Of a stretch of DNA of 33,684 nucleotides, positions 1 to 33,684 are shown one piece after another. Each line of letters opens with the position of its first letter. Position 1 is the first letter of the stretch. Made by a program: the position numbers and the translations under genes. This DNA is from a virus. The stretch is taken from positions 1 to 33,684 of IMG/VR virus record IMGVR_UViG_3300010373_000033; one strand, 5' to 3'. The notes under the pieces were generated by a model. The model ran no database searches. It had not been told where the DNA came from and saw only the letters and a list, made by a program, of their open reading frames with translations.

Positions 1-123
1 CAGATCAATGATTCCTACAAGACTCTGACAAACAATGCACGAGCAGCAGGTAGGGAATGGATTAACAATAATTTTAGTTTATATGAATTAGGTAGAACTA
101 TGCACTCGGTTCATACCATAACC
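1..123. repeat. Terminal direct repeat (circular overlap)
   Basis: The first 123 bases are identical to the last 123 bases of the window. The tape-measure reading frame is continuous across the joint. This shows a circular or circularly permuted genome of about 33,561 bp, or an assembly overlap of such a genome. Confidence 0.97.
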
Positions 124-786
124 AGAGATGCTACAAACGCATGGAATACCTACAATCTTATCCAGATACGAAATGAACAGATCACACAAAGCGTAGCAGA
201 TGCACAGGAAAAACTAGCTCAAGCGTATGCAAGTGGTGATCCTTCAAGGATAGCACAGGCTCAAAAAGATGTTGCTACCCAACTAGACAATCAAAAAAAG
301 GCAGCAGAACAAGCCCAAGCCGCATATATTACAATGGCAGTAAATATGGTGTCCGCTTCTGGTACCTTGTTTTCTTCTGTCATTCCTAAATTATTGGGTT
401 TGATTCAAACAATGAAAGAAGTTCAGATAGCCGCAGGTGTTACGGCTGCAATTTCCACGGCCGCAGGCGGCGGAGTAGGTGCCGGAACTCTGGCAGGTGC
501 AGGTTCGGGAGTCGGTGCGGCTCTCTCAAAAGGTGCCGGAATAGCAGCACGAGCAGCAGGTCCGGCAGCCATAGGAGTAGCTTTATTGTCCATGATGGGG
601 CAACAACAAGCAGGCGAAACAGAAGTACCGACAGGAATCGGTGCATTGCAACAGATAGGCGGAGATATTGGCAAGGTAGTATCAAATACGTTTAATATTA
701 TAGTACAAGACGCAGGTGCAGCAGCTAAACAAGTTCAAAACGAATTATCCAAAGTATTATCTTTCGGTGGTCAGCCCGCAAGTTGA
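1..786 (+). CDS. Tail tape measure-like protein, C-terminal part (start wraps from 33475)
   Basis: The frame is open from base 1 and joins the ATG at 33475 through the 123-base overlap, giving a full protein of about 290 residues. It has a helical, Gln/Ala-rich N-terminal half, then hydrophobic and Gly/Ala-rich segments (roughly residues 140-225), then an amphipathic C-terminus. It lies directly after a frameshifted tail chaperone pair and before the hub gene, which is the classic tape-measure position. The role is to set tail length and be ejected with DNA. The protein is very short for a tape measure. The call rests on position and composition, not on a recognised domain. An internal ATG at 100 is not the start. 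Confidence 0.75.
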   Translation, partial: QINDSYKTLTNNARAAGREWINNNFSLYELGRTMHSVHTITRDATNAWNTYNLIQIRNEQITQSVADAQEKLAQAYASGDPSRIAQAQKDVATQLDNQKKAAEQAQAAYITMAVNMVSASGTLFSSVIPKLLGLIQTMKEVQIAAGVTAAISTAAGGGVGAGTLAGAGSGVGAALSKGAGIAARAAGPAAIGVALLSMMGQQQAGETEVPTGIGALQQIGGDIGKVVSNTFNIIVQDAGAAAKQVQNELSKVLSFGGQPAS

Positions 787-5172: not shown

Positions 5173-5186
5173 TTCTTTATTTTTTA
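5173..5186 (+). terminator. Oligo-T terminator candidate for the late unit
   Basis: A T-rich tract begins immediately after the stop of the gene ending at 5172 and runs into the convergent gene's stop codon. Archaeal transcription commonly ends at such tracts. No hairpin is seen. Confidence 0.4.
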
Positions 5187-6332
5187 TACAAAATTTGCAT
5201 GTTTGGGGCGTTCTATTCCCTGCTTCATAGCCTTGTTTCTATCCCTCATCCAGCATGGCGGACAAGTCTTGACGTCTAACTGCGTCATTTTGGAATGAGA
5301 TTTTTGGATTAATTCCTTCAAGGTATTTTCCCTGATATCACCAAGTTCAAAGCCTGGAATGTATTTTTGAATACAGCAAGGATAGATCTTACAGTCTGCA
5401 CCCAAAGCCCAGACGAATCTTTGCATGTAACAGGTATCAAAGTCATCATTTCCATGCGTATAGGATTCTAGTTTGTATAATGCCGGTGTGACTACATAAT
5501 CAGATCGTGAGTGACATTTGACTGCAATATTAAGCATGTCTTGGGCGTGTTTGAGATGCTCTGGTTCTATCTGCCCTATTCCTGTTCCCTCGATATACAT
5601 GAATGAAAACCTGATGTAGTCCACGCCAACCTCTGAAAATAATCTACTCGTATCCAAAATATCATCAAAATTCTGGTCGGTAATCACAAAATTTACACCT
5701 ATTGTAAGTCCCTCATCTTTTGGATTCGGTATCCGTTCGTATAATTTTCTTTTCTCTACAAGTTTCTTGATTGCTTCCAACCTTCTCTCAAAATCAAGGT
5801 TTCCAGTCCTGTGGATCTTTTTATGCGTTTCAGGATTGGAACTATCAATCGATATTCTAACCCACCTGAAATGTCTAGCCATTGTTTCAATTCTTTTTTC
5901 TGTCATCGTACTGCCGTTTGTAATCAAGCCAATTTCCAAGCCATATTTGACACAATTATCGACCATCTCATCATAGGCAGACCATAAAGTGGACTCACCC
6001 CCCCCAGTGAAAGTTATTGAAGGGATACCAGCTTCATAAAACTGCCTTGGTAATTCCTTGGCAAACTCTACGGGAAGGCTTGTGTTTTTTGATGGCTTAC
6101 CTATTGGCTTGAACTCGTCAATCATTGGCAACTTTTTCGGGTTAAGCAAAGGCAACATGTTCTTTGCGTTATGCGATTCTTCTGCACGGTAAGAACAAAA
6201 ACTGCAATTATCATTACAATAAAGTTCAAGATCTACCTGAATGTTAGTCGGTGCAATCGGTTTCCCTTCCTGTAAAAGTTTCAGCCTGTCAAGGTGATAA
6301 TTTGCCTTTGATAACGAGAATGGTGCTTCCAC
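5184..6332 (-). CDS. Radical SAM enzyme with SPASM-like C-terminus
   Basis: This 382-residue protein starts at GTG, whose G is the last base of the upstream TAG. It carries the radical SAM cluster motif CxxxCxxC at C39, C43 and C46, a SAM-binding FTGGGES motif near residue 110, and LITNGS and RISID strand motifs of the TIM barrel. Residues about 300-370 hold more cysteines (DTC, ADC, PCC, CPPC), as in SPASM/Twitch domains that bind extra Fe-S clusters. Such enzymes usually modify peptides or small molecules. The substrate is unknown and no obvious precursor peptide is adjacent. It ends a leftward unit with an adenine methyltransferase and a ParB-like gene. Confidence 0.88.
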   Translation of the reverse strand: MEAPFSLSKANYHLDRLKLLQEGKPIAPTNIQVDLELYCNDNCSFCSYRAEESHNAKNMLPLLNPKKLPMIDEFKPIGKPSKNTSLPVEFAKELPRQFYEAGIPSITFTGGGESTLWSAYDEMVDNCVKYGLEIGLITNGSTMTEKRIETMARHFRWVRISIDSSNPETHKKIHRTGNLDFERRLEAIKKLVEKRKLYERIPNPKDEGLTIGVNFVITDQNFDDILDTSRLFSEVGVDYIRFSFMYIEGTGIGQIEPEHLKHAQDMLNIAVKCHSRSDYVVTPALYKLESYTHGNDDFDTCYMQRFVWALGADCKIYPCCIQKYIPGFELGDIRENTLKELIQKSHSKMTQLDVKTCPPCWMRDRNKAMKQGIERPKHANFV

Positions 6333-16189: not shown

Positions 16190-16429
16190 ATGGCTAAAAC
16201 TGCATGGCATGATCCAGATGTTCACGGCAGATTACTAAACGCATTAATCAAAAGGGCTAACAAGGAATTTTACAAGGCATTGGATGAAAAGAACGTCGAA
16301 CTTGCACAATCATGGCTAGACAGAATCATCAAATCCGAGCATGGTATACGTTCCTACATTGAGATAGTCACAGGTGTCAAAGAGCTAATCCGAGAAGGAA
16401 AGAAACTTGAAGCCGACATCACTAGATGA
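16190..16429 (+). CDS. Small helical protein before TerL
   Basis: 79 residues, all helix and mixed charge, overlapping the TerL start by 23 bases. It could be the small terminase or a packaging accessory. No motif recognised. Confidence 0.6.
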   Translation: MAKTAWHDPDVHGRLLNALIKRANKEFYKALDEKNVELAQSWLDRIIKSEHGIRSYIEIVTGVKELIREGKKLEADITR

Positions 16430-17780
16430 TCTGGAAGTCTTAAGGCAGAAAATCACTAGGGCAAAACAGGAAACAATACAAAAATCATTGCCATTCTGGT
16501 GCGGAGATTACCAAGGCTCGGAATTTTGCTGTTACAACCACCGGATAGGATTGCCAAAAAAAGACGGCACAGAGCATCCAATCTATGCTTACGAGGAAGA
16601 ATTATTCGAGGATATCGAGCAATACAACTATCTTGCAATCGTAAAGGCGACTGGTTTAGGAATCACAGAATTTTTCCTAAGATATGCAGAATGGAAGGCG
16701 TTATTCCACTACAAGAACGCACATATTGTAATCTTCACAGGCCCGAATCTCAACCTTGCAAAGATGCAGATACGAAGAATCCAAGACCATTTGAGAGGCA
16801 AATACAACTATTCGGGGACAGATTACAGGCTAGAAATCAATACAAACGTCATAGAGGCTTTCCCATCCATGAACATAGACGCTGCAAGATCCTTACCCAA
16901 TCCCAAATTCATTATGATAGACGAGGCAGCATTTTTCAAGATGGTAAATGACGAGGAAATACGGGCAATCGCTGAAAGGTACGAACTCAAATCCCAGTCC
17001 AAGGTCGTTATATATTCTACACCTGGATTGCCGTCTGGTATGTTTTATGATCTAATCAAAGAAGAACCTACCAAATATGCCAAAAGATATCTTGACTACC
17101 GAAGAGGATTACAACCACATAAATGCAATCTTGGATTAACTATCTATGATCCTACCAAACTGGATGAGGCAAAGAAATCACCAAGTTTTGAACGTGAATA
17201 CAACCTACAATGGGGTTACGGCACGGGTAACATCTTTCCATATCAATTACTAGACAAGTGTGTCGAGGAATACGACCTTGCACCACAATCAGACGACAGG
17301 GTATTATTCTATGATCCGGCATTTGGCAGTTCAATGTTTGGCATTTTAGGAATGGAAAAGCGTAGTGACGGGTTACTGTATATCTTGGATGCAGAGGAAT
17401 TTGAGAGGTCTAGTTTTCCCGCAATGCTGGAACGGTTAAAATTCCTTACAGAGTCCAAATATCATAGAGTCCTAGGGGATAACTCACGACCTGAGATAGT
17501 CAAGGAACTACAAGACAACGGAATAGATGCAACGGGTGTAATCTTCTCAAAGGAACTTACAGAGATGACCATCACATCAAGCCAAAAGGTAAAGGAATTA
17601 CAGGTTAGAATCCACCCGATATTCAAGGATCTGTTATTACAATTGCGTTCAGTGGAATACAACGACAAGGGACACCCCGACAAGAAGAAGATATCATTTG
17701 ACTTGGGAGATCCTTTCATGATGGGATGTAAGCACTTTGCGACTTCCTTTTATGGTGGCATACTGAGGGATAATTGGTAA
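16407..17780 (+). CDS. terL: Large terminase (DNA packaging ATPase/nuclease)
   Basis: 457 residues from TTG 16407. The ATPase domain has a degenerate Walker A (KATGLGITE), a Walker B with catalytic Glu (FIMIDEAAF), and a coupling motif (YSTPG). The nuclease domain has acidic strands LFYDPAF (Asp) and LGDNS (Asp) and a late FDLGDPF. It cuts and pumps viral DNA into the procapsid through the portal. The family is clear; the unusual P-loop with GLGIT in place of the usual GKS/T is noted. The next gene starts on its stop codon. Confidence 0.92.
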   Translation: MKPTSLDDLEVLRQKITRAKQETIQKSLPFWCGDYQGSEFCCYNHRIGLPKKDGTEHPIYAYEEELFEDIEQYNYLAIVKATGLGITEFFLRYAEWKALFHYKNAHIVIFTGPNLNLAKMQIRRIQDHLRGKYNYSGTDYRLEINTNVIEAFPSMNIDAARSLPNPKFIMIDEAAFFKMVNDEEIRAIAERYELKSQSKVVIYSTPGLPSGMFYDLIKEEPTKYAKRYLDYRRGLQPHKCNLGLTIYDPTKLDEAKKSPSFEREYNLQWGYGTGNIFPYQLLDKCVEEYDLAPQSDDRVLFYDPAFGSSMFGILGMEKRSDGLLYILDAEEFERSSFPAMLERLKFLTESKYHRVLGDNSRPEIVKELQDNGIDATGVIFSKELTEMTITSSQKVKELQVRIHPIFKDLLLQLRSVEYNDKGHPDKKKISFDLGDPFMMGCKHFATSFYGGILRDNW

Positions 17781-17980: not shown

Positions 17981-18196
17981 TTGGGCTGTAATGGCATATG
18001 TCCACGATACAAGGCTAAGAAGCCATTACAAGGATCATACTATACCTTTTCAAAGCGATGCCAAGAGTGTGGTATCTTTGTCTTATGGGAAGGCCTGAAA
18101 TGTCCATGCTGCGGGCAGAAACTACGCACAAAACCAAGAAACAATGAATACCGTGAAAAACTACGAAAAGAACAGGGGATAGACATCAGATGCTAG
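17981..18196 (+). CDS. Stand-alone thaumarchaeal-type zinc module
   Basis: 71 residues from TTG, directly after the previous stop. It carries C-x3-C, then KRCQEC, CPCCG and KPRN, the same module as residues 1-63 of the ParB-like protein at 7026. The Cys arrangement fits two zincs. Probably nucleic-acid-binding. Confidence 0.7.
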   Translation: MGCNGICPRYKAKKPLQGSYYTFSKRCQECGIFVLWEGLKCPCCGQKLRTKPRNNEYREKLRKEQGIDIRC

Positions 18197-18864
18197 CAGT
18201 AGGGTATAATTTCTATGAGAAATCCCTTGCTACCGTACAGCGTGGCATCGAATCTGTTAAATCCCATGTTGACTATATCTTTGCTATCGATGGCAGATAC
18301 ACGGATGAATACGGGGTACCATTATTTCCAGACTCTGAACCTCTATCTCATGAAATTGTACGCAACTATCTCCAAAACATCCCAAACGTTATTCTGGTTG
18401 ATCTTCCCGCTACTGAGATCCAAAAACGACAGCGATACCTTGACATGTGCAAACAATACGACTGTGAATATCTCATTATCCTCGACGGGGACGAATTCGT
18501 TTTACCTGAGTCCGACTGGCAATCATTCAAACATAACTTGGAACAATGTAAACCAGATACCAACATCTACGGGATAAAGTACGAGTATTCATATCCACAA
18601 CACCATGACGCTACAAACTATCCTAGATTATGGTTCAGACCGTGGGAGATGGAGTATTTTCATGCCCATTGCTTATTCAAGAATAAAATCACGGGCAGAG
18701 TGCAGAAATCAAGTTCAGGTGTACCATGTATCGAAGGCATCAGGATGGCAGGTGATGACACACTACGAAACAGGGAATACCAATTGCAGTCTTTTGAATA
18801 CCAGACTTGGCTTATCGAACACGAGCAAGAAATCAGGGAAGAATATCGAGAGAAAGAATATTAA
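18190..18864 (+). CDS. Glycosyltransferase-like (GT-A) protein I
   Basis: 224 residues, ATG overlapping the zinc-module gene's end. It begins with a strand-helix and has an IFAIDGRY stretch, then LIILDGDEF, the DxD motif used by GT-A transferases to hold the metal and sugar nucleotide. The C-terminal part holds several Tyr/His/Trp typical of the acceptor side. It is shorter than most GT2 enzymes. Donor and acceptor are unknown; two more such genes follow. Confidence 0.7.
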   Translation: MLAVGYNFYEKSLATVQRGIESVKSHVDYIFAIDGRYTDEYGVPLFPDSEPLSHEIVRNYLQNIPNVILVDLPATEIQKRQRYLDMCKQYDCEYLIILDGDEFVLPESDWQSFKHNLEQCKPDTNIYGIKYEYSYPQHHDATNYPRLWFRPWEMEYFHAHCLFKNKITGRVQKSSSGVPCIEGIRMAGDDTLRNREYQLQSFEYQTWLIEHEQEIREEYREKEY

Positions 18865-18889
18865 GAACCGTCGTTTAAATGAATTTAAA

Positions 18890-18967
18890 ATGAGTGAAAT
18901 ACACAAGAAAAGAAAATCACCCGTTATCGAAGAAAGAAAACTAATCCAAACGGACTTGTTGCAATAA
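18890..18967 (+). CDS. 25-residue basic peptide
   Basis: ATG 18890 to TAA 18967, overlapping the next ATG (TAATG). Lys/Arg-rich, no Cys. Supported only by the junction and by the following chain of small genes; weak. Confidence 0.35.
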   Translation: MSEIHKKRKSPVIEERKLIQTDLLQ

Positions 18968-19053
18968 TGCTCGAATGTCTTATCTGTCACAAACTGGAAC
19001 AGTTACCCGAAGATATGCAAGATCATTTGTTGATTCACGAGGATAGTTCCTGA
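18967..19053 (+). CDS. 28-residue single C2H2 zinc finger
   Basis: Starts on the previous stop and ends on the next ATG (TGATG). CLIC, then 12 residues, then HLLIH is the spacing of a classical C2H2 finger; there is almost nothing else in the protein. Confidence 0.6.
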   Translation: MLECLICHKLEQLPEDMQDHLLIHEDSS

Positions 19054-19280
19054 TGCCGCCTTCGATCAATTCTGCCAAATGTGACAAATGTGAAAGGTCA
19101 TTTCATCCTGACGATATTGAGAATCACAAGGCATTACACGAAAAGGAAGGCGACATTTGTATCGTCTGCGGTCTTGGTATGATGATTACTTCCGAAGATG
19201 AAATCCATATCACCTGTGACTATTGCAGTACAACGTGGACGAAGCAGGGTCATGAAAAGCCATTGAGTGAGAGAATATGA
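19053..19280 (+). CDS. 75-residue C2H2 finger plus zinc ribbon
   Basis: CDKC ... HKALH (about residues 10-29) is a C2H2 finger, followed by CIVC and CDYC as a zinc ribbon. The stop overlaps the next ATG. Two-zinc protein, probably nucleic-acid-binding. Confidence 0.65.
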   Translation: MPPSINSAKCDKCERSFHPDDIENHKALHEKEGDICIVCGLGMMITSEDEIHITCDYCSTTWTKQGHEKPLSERI

Positions 19281-19480
19281 AAAGTCTCGGTAAATTATGT
19301 CTTGTAAAATACAAGTTAAAATGTTATGATTGTGATATCATCTATGTTACACCAGAGAGAAAGGAATTACAATATGAAAAAGGTCTAACAGTAACAGCCA
19401 AGTGTCAAGAGTGCGGAAAGAAGATTTTTAGTAAACGAATAGTTGGTCCAATTATTGACCTAGGATTAATTTCTATATGA
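19277..19480 (+). CDS. 67-residue zinc-ribbon protein
   Basis: CYDC and CQEC, about 27 apart, within a basic beta-rich chain. ATG and stop both sit in 4-base overlaps with neighbours. Confidence 0.65.
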   Translation: MKSLGKLCLVKYKLKCYDCDIIYVTPERKELQYEKGLTVTAKCQECGKKIFSKRIVGPIIDLGLISI

Positions 19481-19569
19481 AAGCCTTGGACTTTATCAAA
19501 TTACATTTTGACGTAGACGAAGCAGATGCCGAGTTTGATAAGGCATTGATGGAGTTTTTGACACCTTGA
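19477..19569 (+). CDS. 30-residue acidic microprotein
   Basis: ATG overlaps the upstream stop (ATGA), and the end forms the TTGA start of the next. Short amphipathic acidic helix. Unknown. Confidence 0.5.
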   Translation: MKALDFIKLHFDVDEADAEFDKALMEFLTP

Positions 19570-19697
19570 ACTGCCAATGCTCAGACGAACCATTGTTTTG
19601 TAGGCTATGTCATTACGGTGATATCCATATTTCCTTCACAACAGAATCAGATATAGTAAAGCATTTCAAGGATATCCACGGAGTATTGAGATCATGA
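19566..19697 (+). CDS. 43-residue zinc finger
   Basis: TTG at 19566 in a TTGA overlap; stop overlaps the next ATG. CQC, then CRLC and HFKDIH give a C2H2-like finger with an extra Cys pair. Confidence 0.6.
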   Translation: MNCQCSDEPLFCRLCHYGDIHISFTTESDIVKHFKDIHGVLRS

Positions 19698-19891
19698 GTT
19701 TATCCAAACAGCATAAAATCAAACGAAAACTGGTATTGCTTCATATAGAAGATGGAACAATGGTCGAGTGTCAGAATCTTGCAGCACACCTAAAAACTCT
19801 ATACCCAAGTACCATATTCATGATTACCCACAAGAAGATGGATTCAATTTCAAGAGCTGAACTAAAACAGATGGTGAAGATGTTAGAATGA
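19694..19891 (+). CDS. 65-residue basic unknown
   Basis: Basic N-terminus (KQHKIKRKL), then alpha/beta. One Cys. Both ends in 4-base overlaps. Unknown. Confidence 0.55.
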   Translation: MSLSKQHKIKRKLVLLHIEDGTMVECQNLAAHLKTLYPSTIFMITHKKMDSISRAELKQMVKMLE

Positions 19892-20739
19892 TGTCAGCAA
19901 GCGAACACGATGATCTAGTGGAAAAATATCCACTATTCACACCCGAAGAAATAGCAGCAGCAAGAAAAATGTTTGACGATTCAAGCGACAGACAAATCAA
20001 GAAACAACCGCTAGTATCGGTAATAATCCCCGTCTATAACTGCCACAAATACGTCGCACTTGCAATAGAATCGGTACGCATGCAATCTTGGAAGTCATTG
20101 GAACTTATCATAGTAGACGATGGAAGCGATGACGGAACTACGGAATTATTGCAGAAAATCATAGATCCTAGAGTGCCAGAAGTACAGGTAATTTACCAAC
20201 TTCAAAACAAGGGTACGGCATCAGCACTAAACGAGGGAATCAAGCACGCACGAGGCGAATGGATAAGATGGCTTTCAGCAGACGACATGATGTATCCAAA
20301 CAGCGTACAAGATATGATGATATTTGGTGTAGAGGATAACGCCAAACAGTCCAAAAACGCTATATTTTACAGCGACTATGATATCATTGATGAACGTGGC
20401 AGTCTTATCGGCGACTTTATCGAGCCAGATCGCAACCTATCCGACCATGAAACAAAAACAAAGGAGTTATTCAATCATTTCTACGGCAACGGATCAACCA
20501 GCTTAATACACAAAAACGTATTCAAGAAATGCGGATTATTCGATGAATCGCTGAAACATTCCGAGGATTATGAGTTTTGGTTGAGGGCAACAGCATTGTT
20601 CAACGTTGAAATGATACGGGTACCGACGAAAACCATCAAGTACCGCAGATGGTCAGGCCAGATGACAAACAAAGTAGGCGGAAGTCTGGACGAACAGATT
20701 AAAAAGTCTATTAAAGATAAAATGAGTCAACTAGCCTGA
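19888..20739 (+). CDS. Family 2 glycosyltransferase
   Basis: 283 residues. Clear GT2 hallmarks: VSVIIPVYNC start of the Rossmann-like domain at about residue 45, LIIVDDGSDDGT, GEWIRWLSADDM with the DxD-type metal site, and EDYEFWLRA for the acceptor base region. It transfers a sugar from a nucleotide donor. The N-terminal 40 residues are helical. Its place in the late unit suggests glycosylation of virion or envelope proteins; no polymerase or flippase is nearby. ATG overlaps the upstream stop. Confidence 0.92.
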   Translation: MMSASEHDDLVEKYPLFTPEEIAAARKMFDDSSDRQIKKQPLVSVIIPVYNCHKYVALAIESVRMQSWKSLELIIVDDGSDDGTTELLQKIIDPRVPEVQVIYQLQNKGTASALNEGIKHARGEWIRWLSADDMMYPNSVQDMMIFGVEDNAKQSKNAIFYSDYDIIDERGSLIGDFIEPDRNLSDHETKTKELFNHFYGNGSTSLIHKNVFKKCGLFDESLKHSEDYEFWLRATALFNVEMIRVPTKTIKYRRWSGQMTNKVGGSLDEQIKKSIKDKMSQLA

Positions 20740-21230
20740 TGGATGCTTCACAATCTGGCTTATCCTCTGGTTCTTTAGGCGGACCAACTACAACAAACTC
20801 TGGCAATCCGACGTATTCAGATGCATCAGCAGGCCCACAGACAAGCAAAGTTCCAAATGCAAAACCTACCGAAATGCCATTGAAGAAAAAGAAAAAGATG
20901 GGAATGGAGATGTTACCATTCCAGCCAGGAGATCCAGAAATAGATTACGTCGATTCACCAATATCAAAACAATGCGGAACCTGTGAATATTTCAAATATC
21001 CGTCAATCTGTACTCTACCGCTATCAATCCCAGTCGAACCGATAACAGGATGCTGCAATCAATGGGAACCAAAAGATAATTCAATTAACGAGGCACGAAC
21101 CACATTACCCAAGATGAAATATTGTGCGGGATGCAACAAGGGACACGAGGACAAGGTAACGGTATGCGACAAGTGTAGTTCTACCGAATTCACACCAAAT
21201 CCAACAAGCAAATATACCATATCTGGCTAG
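20739..21230 (+). CDS. Cys-rich virion-linked protein (HiPIP-like Cys pattern)
   Basis: 163 residues starting on the upstream stop (TGATG). The first 60 residues are Ser/Gly/Pro/Lys-rich. Then CGTCEYF ... C ... GCCNQWEP, the Cys pattern of small phage proteins likened to high-potential iron-sulphur proteins. A second site CAGC ... CDKC follows. It may bind Fe-S or zinc. Function unknown. Confidence 0.6.
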   Translation: MDASQSGLSSGSLGGPTTTNSGNPTYSDASAGPQTSKVPNAKPTEMPLKKKKKMGMEMLPFQPGDPEIDYVDSPISKQCGTCEYFKYPSICTLPLSIPVEPITGCCNQWEPKDNSINEARTTLPKMKYCAGCNKGHEDKVTVCDKCSSTEFTPNPTSKYTISG

Positions 21231-21237
21231 TGGAAAC

Positions 21238-22038
21238 GTGACGGTCAATCTTTTATTAGCTGTTCCAAGCCCAAGGGATATCCCGCAGGTTTTAGACGAA
21301 CATCCTCTTTTACCATGCGATATCTTTGTGGTAAAATACAAACCAGAATGGCAGGCATACTATGATATCCGAGAGTTTTTTCTAGGACACAAGGAATACA
21401 CACATCTTGCCATTGCCTGCGATGATATTGTCGTAAAACCAAACCACATACGGAGATTGGTAAAAGATCTAGAACTGTTTGATTATGATATTCTATCGGG
21501 CATGATGAACATAGAACAGGACGATTTTGAATGGGTAAACATCACACCCACAAGCAATATACCAAATCCAAGACATGAAGAAAGACATTATCAATGGTAC
21601 AAAAAATCAGAGTTGGTCGGCAAGGGTATAATCGAGTGTGGTTTCTCTGGATTTCCTCTGATGGTACTACGCAGAAATGTAGTGTCAGAGATTCCCTTTG
21701 ATGCAGACGGTTCCGCCAATGGTACGGATAACACTTGCGGTGGTTCCTTGGATGTAATGTTCTGCAAGGCAGCACACGAGAAAGGCTACAATATAATGGT
21801 CGATACAGATGTTGTCCTATTGCACCTAAGACGGGAAGGCAAGTCCCTAGTAGGCGGTGCAGTTCCTGATTGGTATTTCAGACCAAAAGGCAGCCCAGAT
21901 GTCAGAAAGGATTTTGTCAGAAACAAGCAACTATTACGAAAAGAACTAGATGCATTTATAGCATCAGGTGGATTGCATCAGGAACAACCAAACAGATTAC
22001 TTATTGCCATGGCAAATATCTTTTTAGAGTCAAATTGA
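21238..22038 (+). CDS. Glycosyltransferase-like (GT-A) protein III
   Basis: 266 residues from GTG. IACDDIVVKP near residue 60 is a GT-A DxD-like motif, and CKAAHEKGYNIMVDTDVVLLH in the C-terminal half is the usual end of a GT2-like fold. GFSGFPLMVLRR lies between, as in acceptor loops. Third putative sugar transferase of the unit, probably for another linkage. Confidence 0.7.
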   Translation: MTVNLLLAVPSPRDIPQVLDEHPLLPCDIFVVKYKPEWQAYYDIREFFLGHKEYTHLAIACDDIVVKPNHIRRLVKDLELFDYDILSGMMNIEQDDFEWVNITPTSNIPNPRHEERHYQWYKKSELVGKGIIECGFSGFPLMVLRRNVVSEIPFDADGSANGTDNTCGGSLDVMFCKAAHEKGYNIMVDTDVVLLHLRREGKSLVGGAVPDWYFRPKGSPDVRKDFVRNKQLLRKELDAFIASGGLHQEQPNRLLIAMANIFLESN

Positions 22039-24018: not shown

Positions 24019-26538
24019 ATGAGTTCAGATTTTAAACTAATCAAAGAGAATCTAGACGGTTCAAAGACATGGAAGATTAAAGCAATTTCAGTCACTACAA
24101 CAGGAAACAATCGAAAATATAACAAGGAAGAAATGACGCTGGGTGCAAGAAGCCTATCATTTAGACCGTTAAACCGTAATCATGCTAGACCATTCTTGCC
24201 ATTCCCAGAGAACCAAACGGGAGTAATGGACTTTGATCCTGTAAAAATGGCAGTAACTGGGGAAATGAGAATCAAAGATCCTCACATAAACCAACTAATC
24301 AAGGAAGGCAAGATAAACAAGCTATCCATCGAGCAATTACCATCTAAAGGCGAGGATTGTAGCCTTGCAACTGGCGTATGCGAACAAAAAGGGGTAATTT
24401 TCACAGGATTGGCACTTTTGGATTCCAATGTCCCCCCAGGAGATCCCACCACTGAAATCAAGGTGGAAATGAAGGATATTCCTATCTTAGAATGTGTGAC
24501 GGATTGCTGCAAGACCGAGATGAAAGGCGAACCGTTTGCCGGATATGATGATTTTGATGCCTGTACTGCTGACGGAAACAGTGACGAATTATGCGGATAT
24601 CTCCAAGCACAATCAGAAAAGTTTGAAACTGCCCCATGGCCCAAAATAGAAAAGAAATCTGACAAACTTACCATGGATGATATCGAACAGACATACGATT
24701 CCATGAACGATTCACAAAAAGCCCACATCATAGATCCAAATGATTTCTACAAGAATACCAAGAAATTCGTAACAAAATCATTCAAGGATCTAAACGACAA
24801 GCAGAAACAGGCACTAATCAAGACATACGGATTCCGACATAGATATAATGATGTAAAACATCTGTTACCAGATTCAGAAGGTCCAACATCACAGCAACCA
24901 TTGTTTGATGATGACTTGCTTGGTCAGGAAATGGATATCAAGAAAGCAACTGATGATTTAATCAAAAAGGGAATAAAAGATCCCAGAGCTCAATCAATGG
25001 CAAATCAAGATCCTGAAAATAACACAGAAAATAATTCTTCTATACCACAATCACAAGACAATGGTATAATGTCCACAATAGCAATCAAAAGCAAAAAATA
25101 TACAAAAGAGCAAATCGACGCCCTTGCAACAAAAATGATTTCAAAGAAAGAAATCAACTCAATGGTATCTGCATTTGTAGGACAGCAAAATTACAAGGCA
25201 CCAATGTCTGACGCACTATCGTCAGTATTGTATAACGCTTCTGACGATGAACTAGACCAATATGCAAGAATCACACAAGACCAAGATCCAAGCGTAATCC
25301 CACAAGGCGGATTACCAGACTACAAGGCATTTACACAAGAAATGATGAAAGGCTTGTCTGAAATCCTTGCAAAGAATACTGAGGAATTGGTAACAAAACT
25401 CATTCCAAAAACAGAGTCCAAAGTCGAACCATCAAGTATAGTCGATGATTCTACCAAGATCAAGACTGAAATGGTCAAGACAATGTATGAATATTATGAC
25501 ATCAAAGGACACAAGGAACTCAACAACCTCAAAGAATTCACTTATACTTTAGACAAAAATGAATACCTCACCAAGTATGGTGCTACCCAGCCAAGCGGTG
25601 CAGGTTCAGTCATTCCAAACCAAAAGGGAACAAAGGAAGAAACAGTAACCGTAACAGCCGGTGACATGGGACAGACCTTTGCAAAACAGGTCATGCTCTT
25701 GCCAGGTGGAAGAATGAGAGTTCCAGTTAGACAATACTGCAACTTTTCAGAGATTCCAAACGGTGCAGACAGAGCCAATTGGTATACCATAGGATCATTT
25801 GTATTCACAACAATCACAGAAGGCACAGAACCAACCAACGTAGCCCAAACAGTAGTCAAGGTACAAGCATTGCCAACTATACGAGGTGCAGTTCAAAGAG
25901 TCGGATACTCACAAGTAGAGAACGCACCATTTGGTCTAGTTGATGCAATCAACAACGCAATGGTACTCGCAGGCTTACATGATGAAGCCTTAGACTTGCT
26001 TGGAAGTGGTGGCTCATACTGGGGAACACCATCAAACGTAACCAACTGGGTAAACGGAAACTCTGGTGCAAACATCACTAGCCAGAACGACGACATTGCT
26101 TCAATGACTCTCACAAGAACCGGACTGATTGCAGCCAAGAGATTGATTGCAGCAGGCGGTTATGATACAAGTCCAGGCAACCTCGTACTATTCTTGCATC
26201 CAAAGGCATACCAAGACTTGATGACTGATACAAACCTGAACACCTACTACCAATATGCCAGACCAGACATCACAGCAACCTACGTTCTAGAACAACTCTA
26301 CGGTGTAGATATAGTGCCGACAACCTCAGTTGCATCAGCAACAAACACCACAAACGCAACATACAGAAACACACTAGCCGTGAAAGGATGGGCTCTAGGA
26401 ATCGCAGCAGCAAGAGAGATTACAATCGAAGTACAACGAAGAAACGAAGTCCAGCAACTTATCATTTCTGGAACCCATAGAGTAAAATCAGCAGTAATCG
26501 ACTACGCTGCATCCTGTGGAATATCTAGTGCACAATAG
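24019..26538 (+). CDS. Fused prohead protease - scaffold - HK97 major capsid protein
   Basis: 839 residues in one frame. Residues 1-150 look like a prohead maturation protease, with RPLNRNH (H55) and KLSIEQ (S103) as candidate catalytic His and Ser. Residues about 150-540 are charged, helical and low in complexity, like a scaffold/delta domain. Residues about 541-839 match an HK97-fold capsid: a PVRQYCNFSEIP stretch, a TTITEG E-loop region, an NAPFGLVDAINNAMVLAGLHDEALDLLG helix region, and a PTTSV/IEVQRR C-terminal part. The protease probably cuts itself and the scaffold away after assembly. Confidence 0.85.
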   Translation: MSSDFKLIKENLDGSKTWKIKAISVTTTGNNRKYNKEEMTLGARSLSFRPLNRNHARPFLPFPENQTGVMDFDPVKMAVTGEMRIKDPHINQLIKEGKINKLSIEQLPSKGEDCSLATGVCEQKGVIFTGLALLDSNVPPGDPTTEIKVEMKDIPILECVTDCCKTEMKGEPFAGYDDFDACTADGNSDELCGYLQAQSEKFETAPWPKIEKKSDKLTMDDIEQTYDSMNDSQKAHIIDPNDFYKNTKKFVTKSFKDLNDKQKQALIKTYGFRHRYNDVKHLLPDSEGPTSQQPLFDDDLLGQEMDIKKATDDLIKKGIKDPRAQSMANQDPENNTENNSSIPQSQDNGIMSTIAIKSKKYTKEQIDALATKMISKKEINSMVSAFVGQQNYKAPMSDALSSVLYNASDDELDQYARITQDQDPSVIPQGGLPDYKAFTQEMMKGLSEILAKNTEELVTKLIPKTESKVEPSSIVDDSTKIKTEMVKTMYEYYDIKGHKELNNLKEFTYTLDKNEYLTKYGATQPSGAGSVIPNQKGTKEETVTVTAGDMGQTFAKQVMLLPGGRMRVPVRQYCNFSEIPNGADRANWYTIGSFVFTTITEGTEPTNVAQTVVKVQALPTIRGAVQRVGYSQVENAPFGLVDAINNAMVLAGLHDEALDLLGSGGSYWGTPSNVTNWVNGNSGANITSQNDDIASMTLTRTGLIAAKRLIAAGGYDTSPGNLVLFLHPKAYQDLMTDTNLNTYYQYARPDITATYVLEQLYGVDIVPTTSVASATNTTNATYRNTLAVKGWALGIAAAREITIEVQRRNEVQQLIISGTHRVKSAVIDYAASCGISSAQ

Positions 26539-27438: not shown

Positions 27439-28968
27439 ATGGTCTTAACAAAATACACTGGCATACAAACCCTGACAGGTTCCGAAGCCGAGATATTCAA
27501 CGTAAACAAAGGTGCATCAACAATTCACTTTGGTGGAACCGTATATCTTGACGAATTAGTTTCAGGCGATACGGTACGGGTACGAGTTTATGATAAAAAG
27601 GATGGCGTTGGATACTGGAAGTTTGACGGTGAAGTAAATGATTATGTCGGAAGTAATAACGGAACTATCACTTACAATACAAACCTCAAGGCATTATACA
27701 AATTTGAACAAAACATAAACGATTCTACAACAGGGGCAAATAATCTAACCCTAGCCGCCGGTACCACATCTTATGTATCAGGACAAGAAGGGAGTGCCAT
27801 ATCACTTAACGGTTCTACATATTATACTGCTAGTAGTTCGGCTGTTATAACTGGAACCGCTGATAGAACTGTATCATTTTGGATGTATATTACATCATTT
27901 GTAGCAAATCAAGGTCCATTTGGTTGGGGGGTGGGTAGTAATAATAACGCCTTTGGGATGTATTTTCCAAATACTAACGGGGTAGCTTATTGTTTTGGAT
28001 ATGCAAATGATGTTCAATTCAATACAACGTTTTCATTAAACACTTGGTATCACATAGCAATAGTAGTATCATCTACGGGGACTGTTAGAACATTATATGT
28101 AAATGGAGTACAGGACAAACAATCTACAACAACAGCATTGAATACTTCATCATCTAGTTTATTCGTAGGTCAGGATTTTCTAAGCAGTGTAGATTTTAAT
28201 GGTTATTTGGACGAGTTCAGAGTTTATTCTTCTGCTTTGTCTGCCTCTCAAGCCTCTGCTCTATACATGGTAGGAAAATATGGTCAGTCGCATACTTTTG
28301 ATGGTGGAGAATACATTTCAGTTGGAAACCCTACTGCCTTACAATTTGAAAGGACAAACTCATTTACATTTGCATACTGGGCAAAATACACATCAAATAC
28401 CAAAGAAAAAATCATCACCAAGAATAACGGAGACGCCACCAAAGGCTATGAGATGGGATTCAATGCCTCTGGATTTCCAATCCTACGATTAATCAATACA
28501 TCCTCTACAAACGAAATCAATGTGGTAGGATCGGCAAGCTATGATGACGGAAACTATCATCATTTTGTATGGACTTATTCGGGTACGAGCCTTGCAAGCG
28601 GGGTAATACTATATGTTGACAATGCCGCCGTTACTTTGACTACAACTACCAACAATCTGAGTGCGACTATCGCCAATTCAAACAATGTAATATTCGGGGC
28701 TGACACGGGAGGAACAAACCCGTTAATAGCACAGATTGACGACCTTAGAATCTATAACCGTGTCCTGTCATCTTCCGAAGTATCCGACCTATACAACAAC
28801 CCGCAAAATCTAAACTCAATAGTCTACGACAAGTCATATTCTGGTCCTTTATCCAGCAAGACGCTTTACATCCCAATCATACAGACAAACAACTATTCAG
28901 TGACATTGCAGCAGTCAGCGGGTAATTACTATAAAACTTTAGATTGGTCAAGAATTGAGATCACGTAA
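27439..28968 (+). CDS. Virion surface protein with nested LamG/ConA-like domains
   Basis: 509 residues. A LamG start (GYWKFDGEVNDYVGSNNGTI, about residues 52-72) is interrupted by a full second LamG domain (about 81-277: LYKFEQNINDSTTG ... SLNG ... TVSFWMYI ... WYHIAIV ... LDEFRVYS). The first domain then resumes at GKYGQSHTFDGGEYISV, and continues through FAYWAK, YHHFVWTY and DDLRIYNR to about 455. LamG folds bind carbohydrates or proteins, so this is a strong candidate for host binding or head decoration. GGTGAT-like TGATAT lies before the ATG. Confidence 0.8.
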   Translation: MVLTKYTGIQTLTGSEAEIFNVNKGASTIHFGGTVYLDELVSGDTVRVRVYDKKDGVGYWKFDGEVNDYVGSNNGTITYNTNLKALYKFEQNINDSTTGANNLTLAAGTTSYVSGQEGSAISLNGSTYYTASSSAVITGTADRTVSFWMYITSFVANQGPFGWGVGSNNNAFGMYFPNTNGVAYCFGYANDVQFNTTFSLNTWYHIAIVVSSTGTVRTLYVNGVQDKQSTTTALNTSSSSLFVGQDFLSSVDFNGYLDEFRVYSSALSASQASALYMVGKYGQSHTFDGGEYISVGNPTALQFERTNSFTFAYWAKYTSNTKEKIITKNNGDATKGYEMGFNASGFPILRLINTSSTNEINVVGSASYDDGNYHHFVWTYSGTSLASGVILYVDNAAVTLTTTTNNLSATIANSNNVIFGADTGGTNPLIAQIDDLRIYNRVLSSSEVSDLYNNPQNLNSIVYDKSYSGPLSSKTLYIPIIQTNNYSVTLQQSAGNYYKTLDWSRIEIT

Positions 28969-31186: not shown

Positions 31187-31624
31187 ATGTCCGTATCGAT
31201 ACGAGTCGATACATCGGATTATGACAGAAAGATAGGTCTTGTACGTGCTGGAATAGACGAGTTTCTACCAATGATTATAACCGAAGGAACGCCATTAATT
31301 CAACAGGAAATGGCAAACCAAGTCCCAGTGAAAACAGGAAGATTACGGGCATCAATCAGTTCCGAATTGGGACAGAATGAATCAGAAACATCAACAAATA
31401 CGGGATATGGATTATACGTAGACCAACCAACCCAACCGCATATCATTTATCCAAGGATTGCCAAATTCTTGAGATTCCAGATAGACGGTATATGGATTCG
31501 TGCATCAAGTGTCAACCATCCAGGGACAAAAGGAAACTTTTTCATACAAAGGACGGTGGATGTAATCATGCCACAGTTGCACGATCTTGCTAAATCAATC
31601 TGGTCTAGCTTGGTGAACAAGTAA
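31187..31624 (+). CDS. HK97 gp10-like neck/tail-completion protein
   Basis: 145 residues with VPVKTGRLRASI, YGLYVDQPTQPHII, and NHPGTKGNFF motifs of the HK97 gp10-like family, which closes the head-tail joint. The position between connector and tail terminator fits. Confidence 0.82.
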   Translation: MSVSIRVDTSDYDRKIGLVRAGIDEFLPMIITEGTPLIQQEMANQVPVKTGRLRASISSELGQNESETSTNTGYGLYVDQPTQPHIIYPRIAKFLRFQIDGIWIRASSVNHPGTKGNFFIQRTVDVIMPQLHDLAKSIWSSLVNK

Positions 31625-32157
31625 TGGTTTATCCTGATGTCACAAACGAGGTGGATCATAATGCAGTAAAGCAAAGGATAGTCTCAACCCTGAAACTTGA
31701 TACCACACTTTACAATCTGAATAATCTTAAAGGATCACTGGCCCATTCAGTCGATGTCGGACTGCCAGACGGTTATAACTGGAATTCCATACCATTTCCG
31801 TATATTCGAGTAACAAACGATCCCAATTTCGAGGATGACCAGATATTTGGTGCCGCAGTAGCTGGAACGTCGCCTTATGCCCACGTATCGACAAGTAAGC
31901 ATACATGCCGTTATCTTGTTATTTTCATGGCTTCGGACAAGTCAGCTCAAGCATTGGAAAAAACTATCGATTTAGCCCACAAGGAAATCAAGAACGCTTT
32001 AAAATCCAACCTGAAACTTGTAACTGCCGCGGGAACAAACGACCTTGGAGTGATACAATCAAGACCACTAAATTCCAAATTGGTCGATGGTGGAAGGTTT
32101 AAGGGAATGACGGTTAATGGTATTATTATACAGTTTCAGGTGATTATACAGACATGA
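31624..32157 (+). CDS. Tail terminator-like protein
   Basis: 177 residues, ATG on the upstream stop (TAATG). Helix-strand order with a long middle (FPYIRVTNDPNFEDDQI), CRYLVIFMASDKS strand and C-terminal strand IIIQFQVIIQ, as in tail terminator folds. It lies directly before the tube gene. Confidence 0.6.
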   Translation: MVYPDVTNEVDHNAVKQRIVSTLKLDTTLYNLNNLKGSLAHSVDVGLPDGYNWNSIPFPYIRVTNDPNFEDDQIFGAAVAGTSPYAHVSTSKHTCRYLVIFMASDKSAQALEKTIDLAHKEIKNALKSNLKLVTAAGTNDLGVIQSRPLNSKLVDGGRFKGMTVNGIIIQFQVIIQT

Positions 32158-33002
32158 CGCTTACCGCTAATGCACATGGTTATGAGGCTTCGGCATGGTA
32201 CATTCTTGAAGTAACCGAGGGAACAACACCTGCAACACCGGCATATCTTGCACTTGCTAACCATGTTGAAATCAAGGAAAACGAATCTCCAAAACCAAAC
32301 GGAGTACGAAAATCAGGCTCTGTCGATTATGCTTCCTTCCAGAAAGGAGTCGTAAAACCAATGATAACGGTAACATTCAGACCGACACAGGCAAACGGAT
32401 TGAACTTTCTAGTAAACTATCTTTCTACGGATAACGCATTTACACTTGTCACCAAGAACCAGAATACGGGACAATTCCTAAGACGATATGTAGGTTGCAA
32501 AGTAAAATCTGGATCTGTAAAATGCAAACTATACCCCAAGGAAGATGTCACCGAGGTAACTTGTGAAATCTGGGGCTGGTCAATACAATACGCAGACATT
32601 TCAGGTTCAACTTATGAAACAATACCAACAACTGCGATAAATTGGTCAGATGTTACCGTAAAAATCGCAGCATCAACAGTAACCGATTGGTGGGAAGCAA
32701 ACTTTGATGTTACTAACGATCTATACAGAATCGTAGACAATACAGGTGCAACTACCCAAATAAAACGTGGAACTAGGGAAGCCAAAGGTGATATCACTAG
32801 ATCAGTATCATTGACAGACCAAGTCCAGACAGAAATTCAAGCAGTAGAAGCATCAACTGTAACAGCGTTTGAAGTGGACTTGTTAGCCCATACTTTCGTC
32901 TTTTCTGGTGGTGTCTATACTGATGTGGACGTAACAAACCCGATTACCGACATGTCATCAAAGAAATTATCCTTCCAAGGTGCGACATTCACCCAGACCT
33001 AA
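32154..33002 (+). CDS. Major tail tube protein
   Basis: 282 residues, beta-rich with repeated Thr/Val strands. It follows the terminator and precedes the G/GT chaperone. The N-terminal ASAWYILEVTEGTTPATPAY and CKVKSGSVKCKLYP fit tube proteins of siphoviruses. It builds the tail by stacking hexamers. Length is at the upper end of the family. Confidence 0.78.
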   Translation: MTLTANAHGYEASAWYILEVTEGTTPATPAYLALANHVEIKENESPKPNGVRKSGSVDYASFQKGVVKPMITVTFRPTQANGLNFLVNYLSTDNAFTLVTKNQNTGQFLRRYVGCKVKSGSVKCKLYPKEDVTEVTCEIWGWSIQYADISGSTYETIPTTAINWSDVTVKIAASTVTDWWEANFDVTNDLYRIVDNTGATTQIKRGTREAKGDITRSVSLTDQVQTEIQAVEASTVTAFEVDLLAHTFVFSGGVYTDVDVTNPITDMSSKKLSFQGATFTQT

Positions 33003-33006
33003 AACA

Positions 33007-33014
33007 TTTAAAAA
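33007..33014 (+). promoter_or_regulatory. TATA-like box before the tail chaperone
   Basis: TTTAAAAA is centred about 26 nt before the GTG at 33036, spacing of a leaderless archaeal promoter. Confidence 0.4.
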
Positions 33015-33035
33015 GACTGAAATTAATTTAAACCT

Positions 33036-33341
33036 GTGCCGGAATTACAACAAAAGACCTTCACTATACGGGACAAAACCTACGTAATGAAGGAAATGAT
33101 AGGAGAGGAAGATCTGGCATTTCAACAACAGTTTACAAACCCGCAGACTTTTGCAGTAAATATTCGTGACTTGTGGTTCAAAAGATTGTCACGTACTATC
33201 ATAACCCCGCAGATGTCAGAAACCGAACTACGACAACTATCCGCCTATGAATTATCTGCATTGATTACAGAATGGCGTCTATTGAATGAGCCTGATCCGT
33301 CCAGTTTTTTATCGAACTCGGCAAGTACAAGGACTACATAG
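33036..33341 (+). CDS. Tail assembly chaperone, short form (gpG-like)
   Basis: 101 residues from GTG 33036. Helical, with FTNPQTFAVNIRDLWFKRLS and a C-terminal SAYELSALITEWRLLNEPD; position between tube and tape measure is that of lambda gpG. It holds the tape measure during tube assembly. The last 9 codons follow a slippery site. Confidence 0.75.
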   Translation: MPELQQKTFTIRDKTYVMKEMIGEEDLAFQQQFTNPQTFAVNIRDLWFKRLSRTIITPQMSETELRQLSAYELSALITEWRLLNEPDPSSFLSNSASTRTT

Positions 33342-33478
33342 ACCATCCACTTTATGCCTTTTACATTGCCAAAACTAGGCTGAACCTGTCCCATGAAGAT
33401 TTTAAGAGCATTTCCAAGGCAACTTTAAAGAAACTCCTATTACTAGACAAGATGTTAAATCCACAGGGTAGAAAATGA
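33036..33478 (+). CDS. Tail assembly chaperone, -1 frameshift form (gpGT-like)
   Basis: A -1 shift on T TTT TTA (33305-33311) joins the short form to an open frame ending TGA 33476-33478, giving about 147 residues. The extension is helical and basic (KTRLNLSHEDFKSISK, KKLLLLDKML). Its stop overlaps the tape-measure ATG at 33475. This mirrors the lambda G/GT pair in order and size. Frameshifting itself is inferred. Confidence 0.75.
33305..33311 (+). promoter_or_regulatory. -1 ribosomal frameshift heptamer T TTT TTA
   Basis: The heptamer is in the exact phase for slipping (X XXY YYZ) and occurs nine codons before the zero-frame stop. It has the same sequence as the HIV-1 gag-pol site. No strong downstream hairpin is obvious by eye. 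Confidence 0.75.
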
Positions 33479-33684
33479 GTGCAGGAACAACAGAAGCAGA
33501 TGTAAAGATCATCCTATCCGCAGATGATCAAGCTAGCGGACCGATTGATTCGGCAACAAACCAGATCAATGATTCCTACAAGACTCTGACAAACAATGCA
33601 CGAGCAGCAGGTAGGGAATGGATTAACAATAATTTTAGTTTATATGAATTAGGTAGAACTATGCACTCGGTTCATACCATAACC
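33475..33684 (+). CDS. Tail tape measure-like protein, N-terminal part
   Basis: ATG at 33475 overlaps the frameshift-form stop (ATGA). The frame continues through the end of the window into base 1 by the 123-base overlap (phase checked: 29 codons precede the repeat). See the C-terminal part at 1-786. Confidence 0.8.
   Translation, partial: MSAGTTEADVKIILSADDQASGPIDSATNQINDSYKTLTNNARAAGREWINNNFSLYELGRTMHSVHTIT
33562..33684. repeat. Terminal direct repeat (copy of 1-123)
   Basis: Identical to bases 1-123; marks the circular joint. Confidence 0.97.

Follow-up and report, generated by a model that had tools for sequence, protein, structure and literature searches.

IMG/VR record IMGVR_UViG_3300010373_000033, analysed here over its whole length of 33,684 bases (the window), is a complete circular virus genome of 39% G+C in which the first 123 bases are repeated as the last 123. 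Between the gene for the major tail (tube) protein and a candidate tape-measure gene lie a short open reading frame, G, and, overlapping its 3' end in the -1 frame, a second open region, T (Table 1). The frame that starts at the GTG at 33036 is read near its end as AGT TTT TTA; the last seven of these bases, T TTT TTA, form the slippery heptamer, and the TAG is reached after nine more sense codons. In the -1 frame, an open stretch extends from 33296 to 33478, with a TGA (33476-33478) that overlaps the ATG of the tape-measure candidate at 33475. A -1 shift at the heptamer would give a fusion, GT, with a computed length of 147 residues. A first-pass annotation of the same DNA had placed the heptamer in exact phase nine codons before the zero-frame stop, had run the -1 frame to a stop overlapping the tape-measure ATG and had given the frameshifted form 147 residues; each of these statements is correct, as are all of its coordinates, and the heptamer lies at 33305-33311. 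As argued below, the locus is in all likelihood the gene for a tail assembly chaperone of the lambda G/GT type, in which a tailed virus of Nitrososphaeria-like archaea uses programmed -1 frameshifting to obtain the longer product.

The frames under selection were assessed by comparison with a close relative, the independent contig IMGVR_UViG_3300025898_000225 (L002), which differs from the window at about 10% of nucleotides over the cassette and has the identical heptamer. Substitutions in G, read in the zero frame, are distributed 5/0/22 over the three codon positions, a strong third-position bias (22/27, binomial p 4e-7). Read in the -1 frame, the overlap gives 0/1/3 and the part belonging to T only 3/1/11, so that 14 of 19 changes again fall in third positions (binomial p 4e-4). 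In the zero frame 3' of the heptamer three codons differ, each with an amino acid replacement. Because the substitution bias moves from zero-frame to -1-frame third positions, selection switches frame at the heptamer: 5' of it the zero frame is constrained, 3' of it the -1 frame. The first ATG, GTG or TTG in the open -1 frame lies at 33452, eight codons before the frame ends, and it is therefore hard to see how T could be translated other than as part of a fusion.

Terminase-based scans of IMG/VR yielded some fifty related contigs. An overlapping, shifted T frame is found in every relative whose tail-tube/tape-measure cassette was readable, the marine relatives described below being outside this count, and an in-phase -1 heptamer is found in all of these except the most distant, G017, where the relation is +1. 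In G003 (IMGVR 3300024344_000145) the sequence is again AGT TTT TTA, and since the preceding -1 codon is TAG, the open -1 frame begins precisely with the heptamer. The in-phase heptamer is A AAA AAG in G002 (3300010371_000080), A AAA AAA inside a run of nine A's in G013 (3300025889_000183) and C CCT TTC in L064 (3300037506_000359). At gp18/gp19 of Pro-Nvie1, a provirus of Nitrososphaera viennensis, it is C CCT TTG, directly 5' of a TGA. The expectation of the first-pass annotation that related genomes would preserve the heptamer and both frames is thus borne out in L002, with its identical heptamer and -1-frame constraint, and the readable cassettes keep the overlapping T frame.

In the window, G003, G002, G013, L064 and Pro-Nvie1 alike, the G/GT pair is located between the tail tube and tape-measure genes. 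GT of the window abuts the tape measure, whereas in the other five genomes one or more small genes intervene. The positional equivalents of the tail tube gene match PF18906 in G002 and G013 (60 bits each) and in Pro-Nvie1 (86 bits). The T regions of G002 and G013 are conserved as protein (40% identity, E 8e-16), and the L064 and Pro-Nvie1 fusions are 32% identical over 182 columns (E 1e-26) in an alignment that is unbroken at the junction. Profile comparison between the two groups of T domains gave no similarity. At the N-terminus of G, the 'TFTIRDKTYVMK' motif of the window protein aligns with the other G proteins.

Table 1. Features of the window, with those of the frameshift locus listed before neighbouring and marker genes
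Feature	Position	Strand	Remarks
Zero-frame product G, 101 residues, GTG start	33036..33341	+	Stop TAG at 33339-33341
Slippery heptamer T TTT TTA	33305..33311	+	In phase; same in L002 and G003
-1-frame T extension, 55 codons and TGA after the shift	33311..33478	+	No usable start codon; third-position bias against L002
Candidate stimulatory hairpin, 8 nucleotides after the heptamer	33320..33370	+	-13.4 kcal/mol, z -3.85
Major tail (tube) protein gene, directly upstream of G	32154..33002	+	Weak Pfam Phage_tube_2 match, 18 bits
Tape-measure candidate, start	33475..33684	+	Position and composition; no family match
Tape-measure candidate, remainder across the circular junction	1..786	+	Intact and continuous in L002
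Terminase large subunit	16407..17780	+	PHROG 2, E 4e-25; used for finding relatives and inferring the host
Major capsid protein, long N-terminal region	24019..26538	+	Pro-Nvie1 match; used for inferring the host

The frequency of such heptamers by chance was estimated from the window genome itself. Its 27 genes (7166 codons) contain 26 in-phase heptamers of the form XXXYYYZ and no in-phase TTTTTTA. At this rate the chance of one in-phase heptamer in the 15-codon overlap is p ~0.05 for the window alone, and the weight accordingly rests on the comparative evidence. For the equivalent overlaps of three other divergent genomes the values are p ~0.11, 0.03 and 0.07. The joint product is ~1e-5, assuming independence and an equal rate across genomes, and a coincidence of heptamers across the genomes is very unlikely.

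Two of the relatives merit separate mention. The Pro-Nvie1 genes gp18 and gp19 (FR725450, L003; 12237-12826) are annotated as separate hypothetical proteins but most probably form a single G/GT frameshift pair, with C CCT TTG TGA at the junction. In G017 (IMGVR 3300006358_000021; L088, reverse strand), a distant terminase relative, a tail-tube/G/T/tape-measure cassette is also visible, with the G frame ending at ~4144; its T-like frame stands in +1 relation to G and the junction reads TTT CGT, and a +1 motif of this kind has also been proposed in influenza. Among haloviruses such a motif has been proposed for the HF1 group (PMC7230728). The marine terminase relatives (G004, G006, G007, G009, G011, G012, G014 and G015) have a different tail gene order. 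There, short genes 5' of an open reading frame of ~900 residues were considered as candidates for G and rejected, as the large frame merely runs over their ends and no slip site is present.

By the proposed mechanism, the majority of ribosomes would read G through to its stop and so produce the 101-residue chaperone. In a minority, the transfer RNAs (tRNAs) on UUU and UUA would move back together by one base at the heptamer and pair with UUU UUU, a tandem -1 shift; these ribosomes would go on in the shifted frame and append 55 residues, yielding GT. By analogy with lambda, where the binding of the tape measure by G and the recruitment of tail-tube subunits by T are summarised in PMC5009743, G would coat or bind the tape-measure protein, and tail-tube subunits would be brought in by the T extension. 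If the roles are indeed lambda-like, the slip rate would set the G:GT ratio. The predicted junction tryptic peptide of the fusion is LLNEPDPSSFLIELGK, with a predicted minor form, ...SSFFIELGK, by analogy with the human immunodeficiency virus (HIV) site, for whose product 70-80% Leu and 20-30% Phe have been reported (PMC5009743).

Could T instead be a separate protein, translated alone after termination of G, whether by coupling or by reinitiation? The annotators of Pro-Nvie1 called gp19 as an open reading frame of its own, with a GTG overlapping the gp18 stop, and L064 also has start codons in the -1 frame. Yet no start codon lies near the beginning of the -1 frame in the window, L002, G003, G002 or G013, and the alignment of the L064 and Pro-Nvie1 fusions runs uninterrupted through the heptamer, so we regard independent translation of T as very improbable. 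A fusion produced by slippage of the polymerase on a homopolymer, rather than of the ribosome, has just as little to recommend it. The run of nine A's in G013 would be long enough, but the run in the window is limited to six T's, and in L064 and Pro-Nvie1 the site, C CCT TTN, does not form a homopolymer; the phase X XXY YYZ expected of ribosomal slippage is obeyed by all sites.

The coincidence of the frame shift with a homopolymer run also raises the question of whether the true gene is a single frame with one more T, disguised by a sequencing or assembly error or by decay. Exactly six T's are present in the same phase both in L002, ~10% diverged here, and in the distant G003, and in four other genomes the frame is shifted the same way at different motifs, which makes error or decay the least credible of these explanations.

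Programmed frameshifting of a tail assembly chaperone remains by far the best explanation, and the results that weigh against it should be set beside those above. Neither G nor GT, in the window or its relatives, matches any Pfam or PHROG family. Moreover, no sequence similarity is detectable between G and T of the window and those of G003; since family matches are also lacking, the equivalence of these two cassettes rests on position and heptamer. Structure prediction is of limited help: the AlphaFold model of window G has a predicted local distance difference test score (pLDDT) of 49, too poor for use, and a fold search of the PDB with the model of G013 G (pLDDT 63; a beta hairpin, then helices) returned no match. 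In Escherichia coli, U_UUU_UUA slips more weakly than A_AAA_AAG (PMC5009743). The downstream hairpin is conserved in part only: L002 retains it at -8.9 kcal/mol, with the apical stem kept, the window's lower stem broken and a weaker, re-registered lower stem in its place, and in G003, G002, G013 and Pro-Nvie1 no unusual structure was found.

On the other side, when the G013 G model was compared by Foldseek with a library of viral structures, the best matches were named tail assembly chaperone, with a probability of ~1 and weak E-values of 0.01-0.03. The identification as a chaperone is carried by gene position and anatomy, to which this model-based match is supportive only. An uncharacterised protein of the Methanobacterium phage psiM2 (BFVD O80209) also appears, weakly and at rank 8, among the fold matches of G013 G, and may be the chaperone of that archaeal phage.

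The hairpin downstream of the window heptamer is a candidate stimulator of frameshifting, with a stability in about the top 1% of 60-nucleotide windows in the structural region. The first-pass annotation had pointed to RNA folding 3' of the heptamer as a check, and the outcome is mixed, a stable hairpin being present in the window but only partly kept in L002. A conserved stimulator was sought across the relatives and not found; only in the window is the hairpin clearly unusual.

Two observations concern the start of G. The sequence TTTAAAAA is located at 33007-33014, ~25 nucleotides before the GTG, and is the same in L002; there is no obvious Shine-Dalgarno sequence, and TTTAAAAA could be the archaeal TATA box of a leaderless G transcript. 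Identity between the window and L002 also changes here. The window from ~31200 to 33050 is 95-100% identical to L002 1351-3150 (~100% in the tail tube gene) and only 81-93% identical on either side, a step that suggests a recombination boundary close to where G begins. At the other end of the cassette, the reading frame of the tape-measure candidate continues at base 1 and, once the 123-bp terminal repeat is removed, encodes 290 residues.

The host was inferred from two marker proteins. Compared by tblastn with 50,697 phage records, the terminase large subunit matches only Pro-Nvie1 (42.5% identity) and the major capsid protein (MCP) only the Pro-Nvie1 protease/MCP (56% identity). Because both match Pro-Nvie1 and no other record of this set, the archaeal assignment made by the first-pass annotation is supported, and the window is probably a virus of Nitrososphaeria-like, ammonia-oxidising archaea. 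Terminase and capsid alignment scans of species genomes revealed no proviruses, but the patterns were poor and the result is hence not evidence of absence. Across viral contigs, the capsid scan gave no matches and the terminase motif pattern matched none.

Several other genes of the window are of interest in their own right. A radical SAM/SPASM protein (5184-6332, - strand) and a region between terminase and portal containing a family-2 glycosyltransferase and adjoining uncharacterised genes (18190-22038, + strand) are unusual cargo in a 33-kb virus. Two distinct adenine DNA methyltransferases, Dam (PF05869) and D12-class (PF02086), are encoded in this one small genome (6571-7056 and 11757-12602, both - strand). 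In the head-tail region, a protein of 509 residues (27439-28968) has two LamG/concanavalin-like stretches and is possibly a virion surface adhesin.

A wider reading of the relatives would be that tailed viruses of ammonia-oxidising archaea generally depend on programmed frameshifting for their tails, the slip motif having been repeatedly exchanged while the T domain was kept. The motifs concerned would be U_UUU_UUA, A_AAA_AAG, A_AAA_AAA, C_CCU_UUC/G and perhaps, for +1, UUU_CGU, some of which are poor on bacterial ribosomes. We offer this tentatively and consider it rather doubtful; if true, it would suggest that archaeal ribosomes or tRNAs have slippage properties of their own.

Among known systems, the closest in anatomy is gpG/gpGT of lambda, which shares the order of tail tube, G/GT and tape measure, the -1 overlap and a heptamer located towards the 3' end of G. 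It differs in its heptamer (G_GGA_AAG) and its bacterial context, the window being an archaeal virus, and no sequence similarity to the window G/GT was detected. Lambda G and GT have about 140 and about 279 residues. Of the match to lambda in gene order and sizes claimed by the first-pass annotation, the order therefore holds well and the sizes only loosely, both G (101 residues) and T (55) being smaller here and the pair measuring 101/147. The HIV-1 gag-pol signal, a U_UUU_UUA with a stem-loop, offers a second likeness. Signals of this type have a stable stem 5-9 nucleotides after the heptamer; the window has the identical heptamer and, 8 nucleotides downstream, the candidate hairpin, weaker and re-registered in L002. 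The likeness is one of analogy only, without homology and with another gene and another ribosome.

Closer in lineage are the tailed viruses of haloarchaea, for which -1 frameshifting of tail chaperone genes has been predicted in HVTV-1 and HCTV-1/2/5 (PMC5009743, PMC8211752) and in Hardycor1 (PMC7911831); the window differs from them in its U_UUU_UUA and Nitrososphaeria-type virus. In view of these predictions, the remark that -1 frameshifting is rarely documented in archaea is overstated. A 2021 review lists a single case demonstrated by experiment, fucA1 of S. solfataricus (PMC8211752). We found no paper linking thaumarchaeal viruses with frameshifting in a literature search that left subscription papers mostly outside. 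Compared with the reports found, the HIV-type heptamer and the thaumarchaeal lineage look new, whereas G/GT frameshifting in archaeal viruses had already been predicted, and the present cases extend those predictions from haloarchaea to the thaumarchaeal lineage. Among named viruses, Pro-Nvie1 is the nearest as judged by its terminase and capsid proteins. It has the same -1 overlap, likewise placed between the tail tube and tape-measure genes, but with C CCT TTG as heptamer, and a head-tail gene separates its G/GT from the tape measure. Since this previously unannotated arrangement is present in the provirus of a cultured host, N. viennensis, slippage on archaeal ribosomes becomes testable beyond haloarchaea and Sulfolobales.
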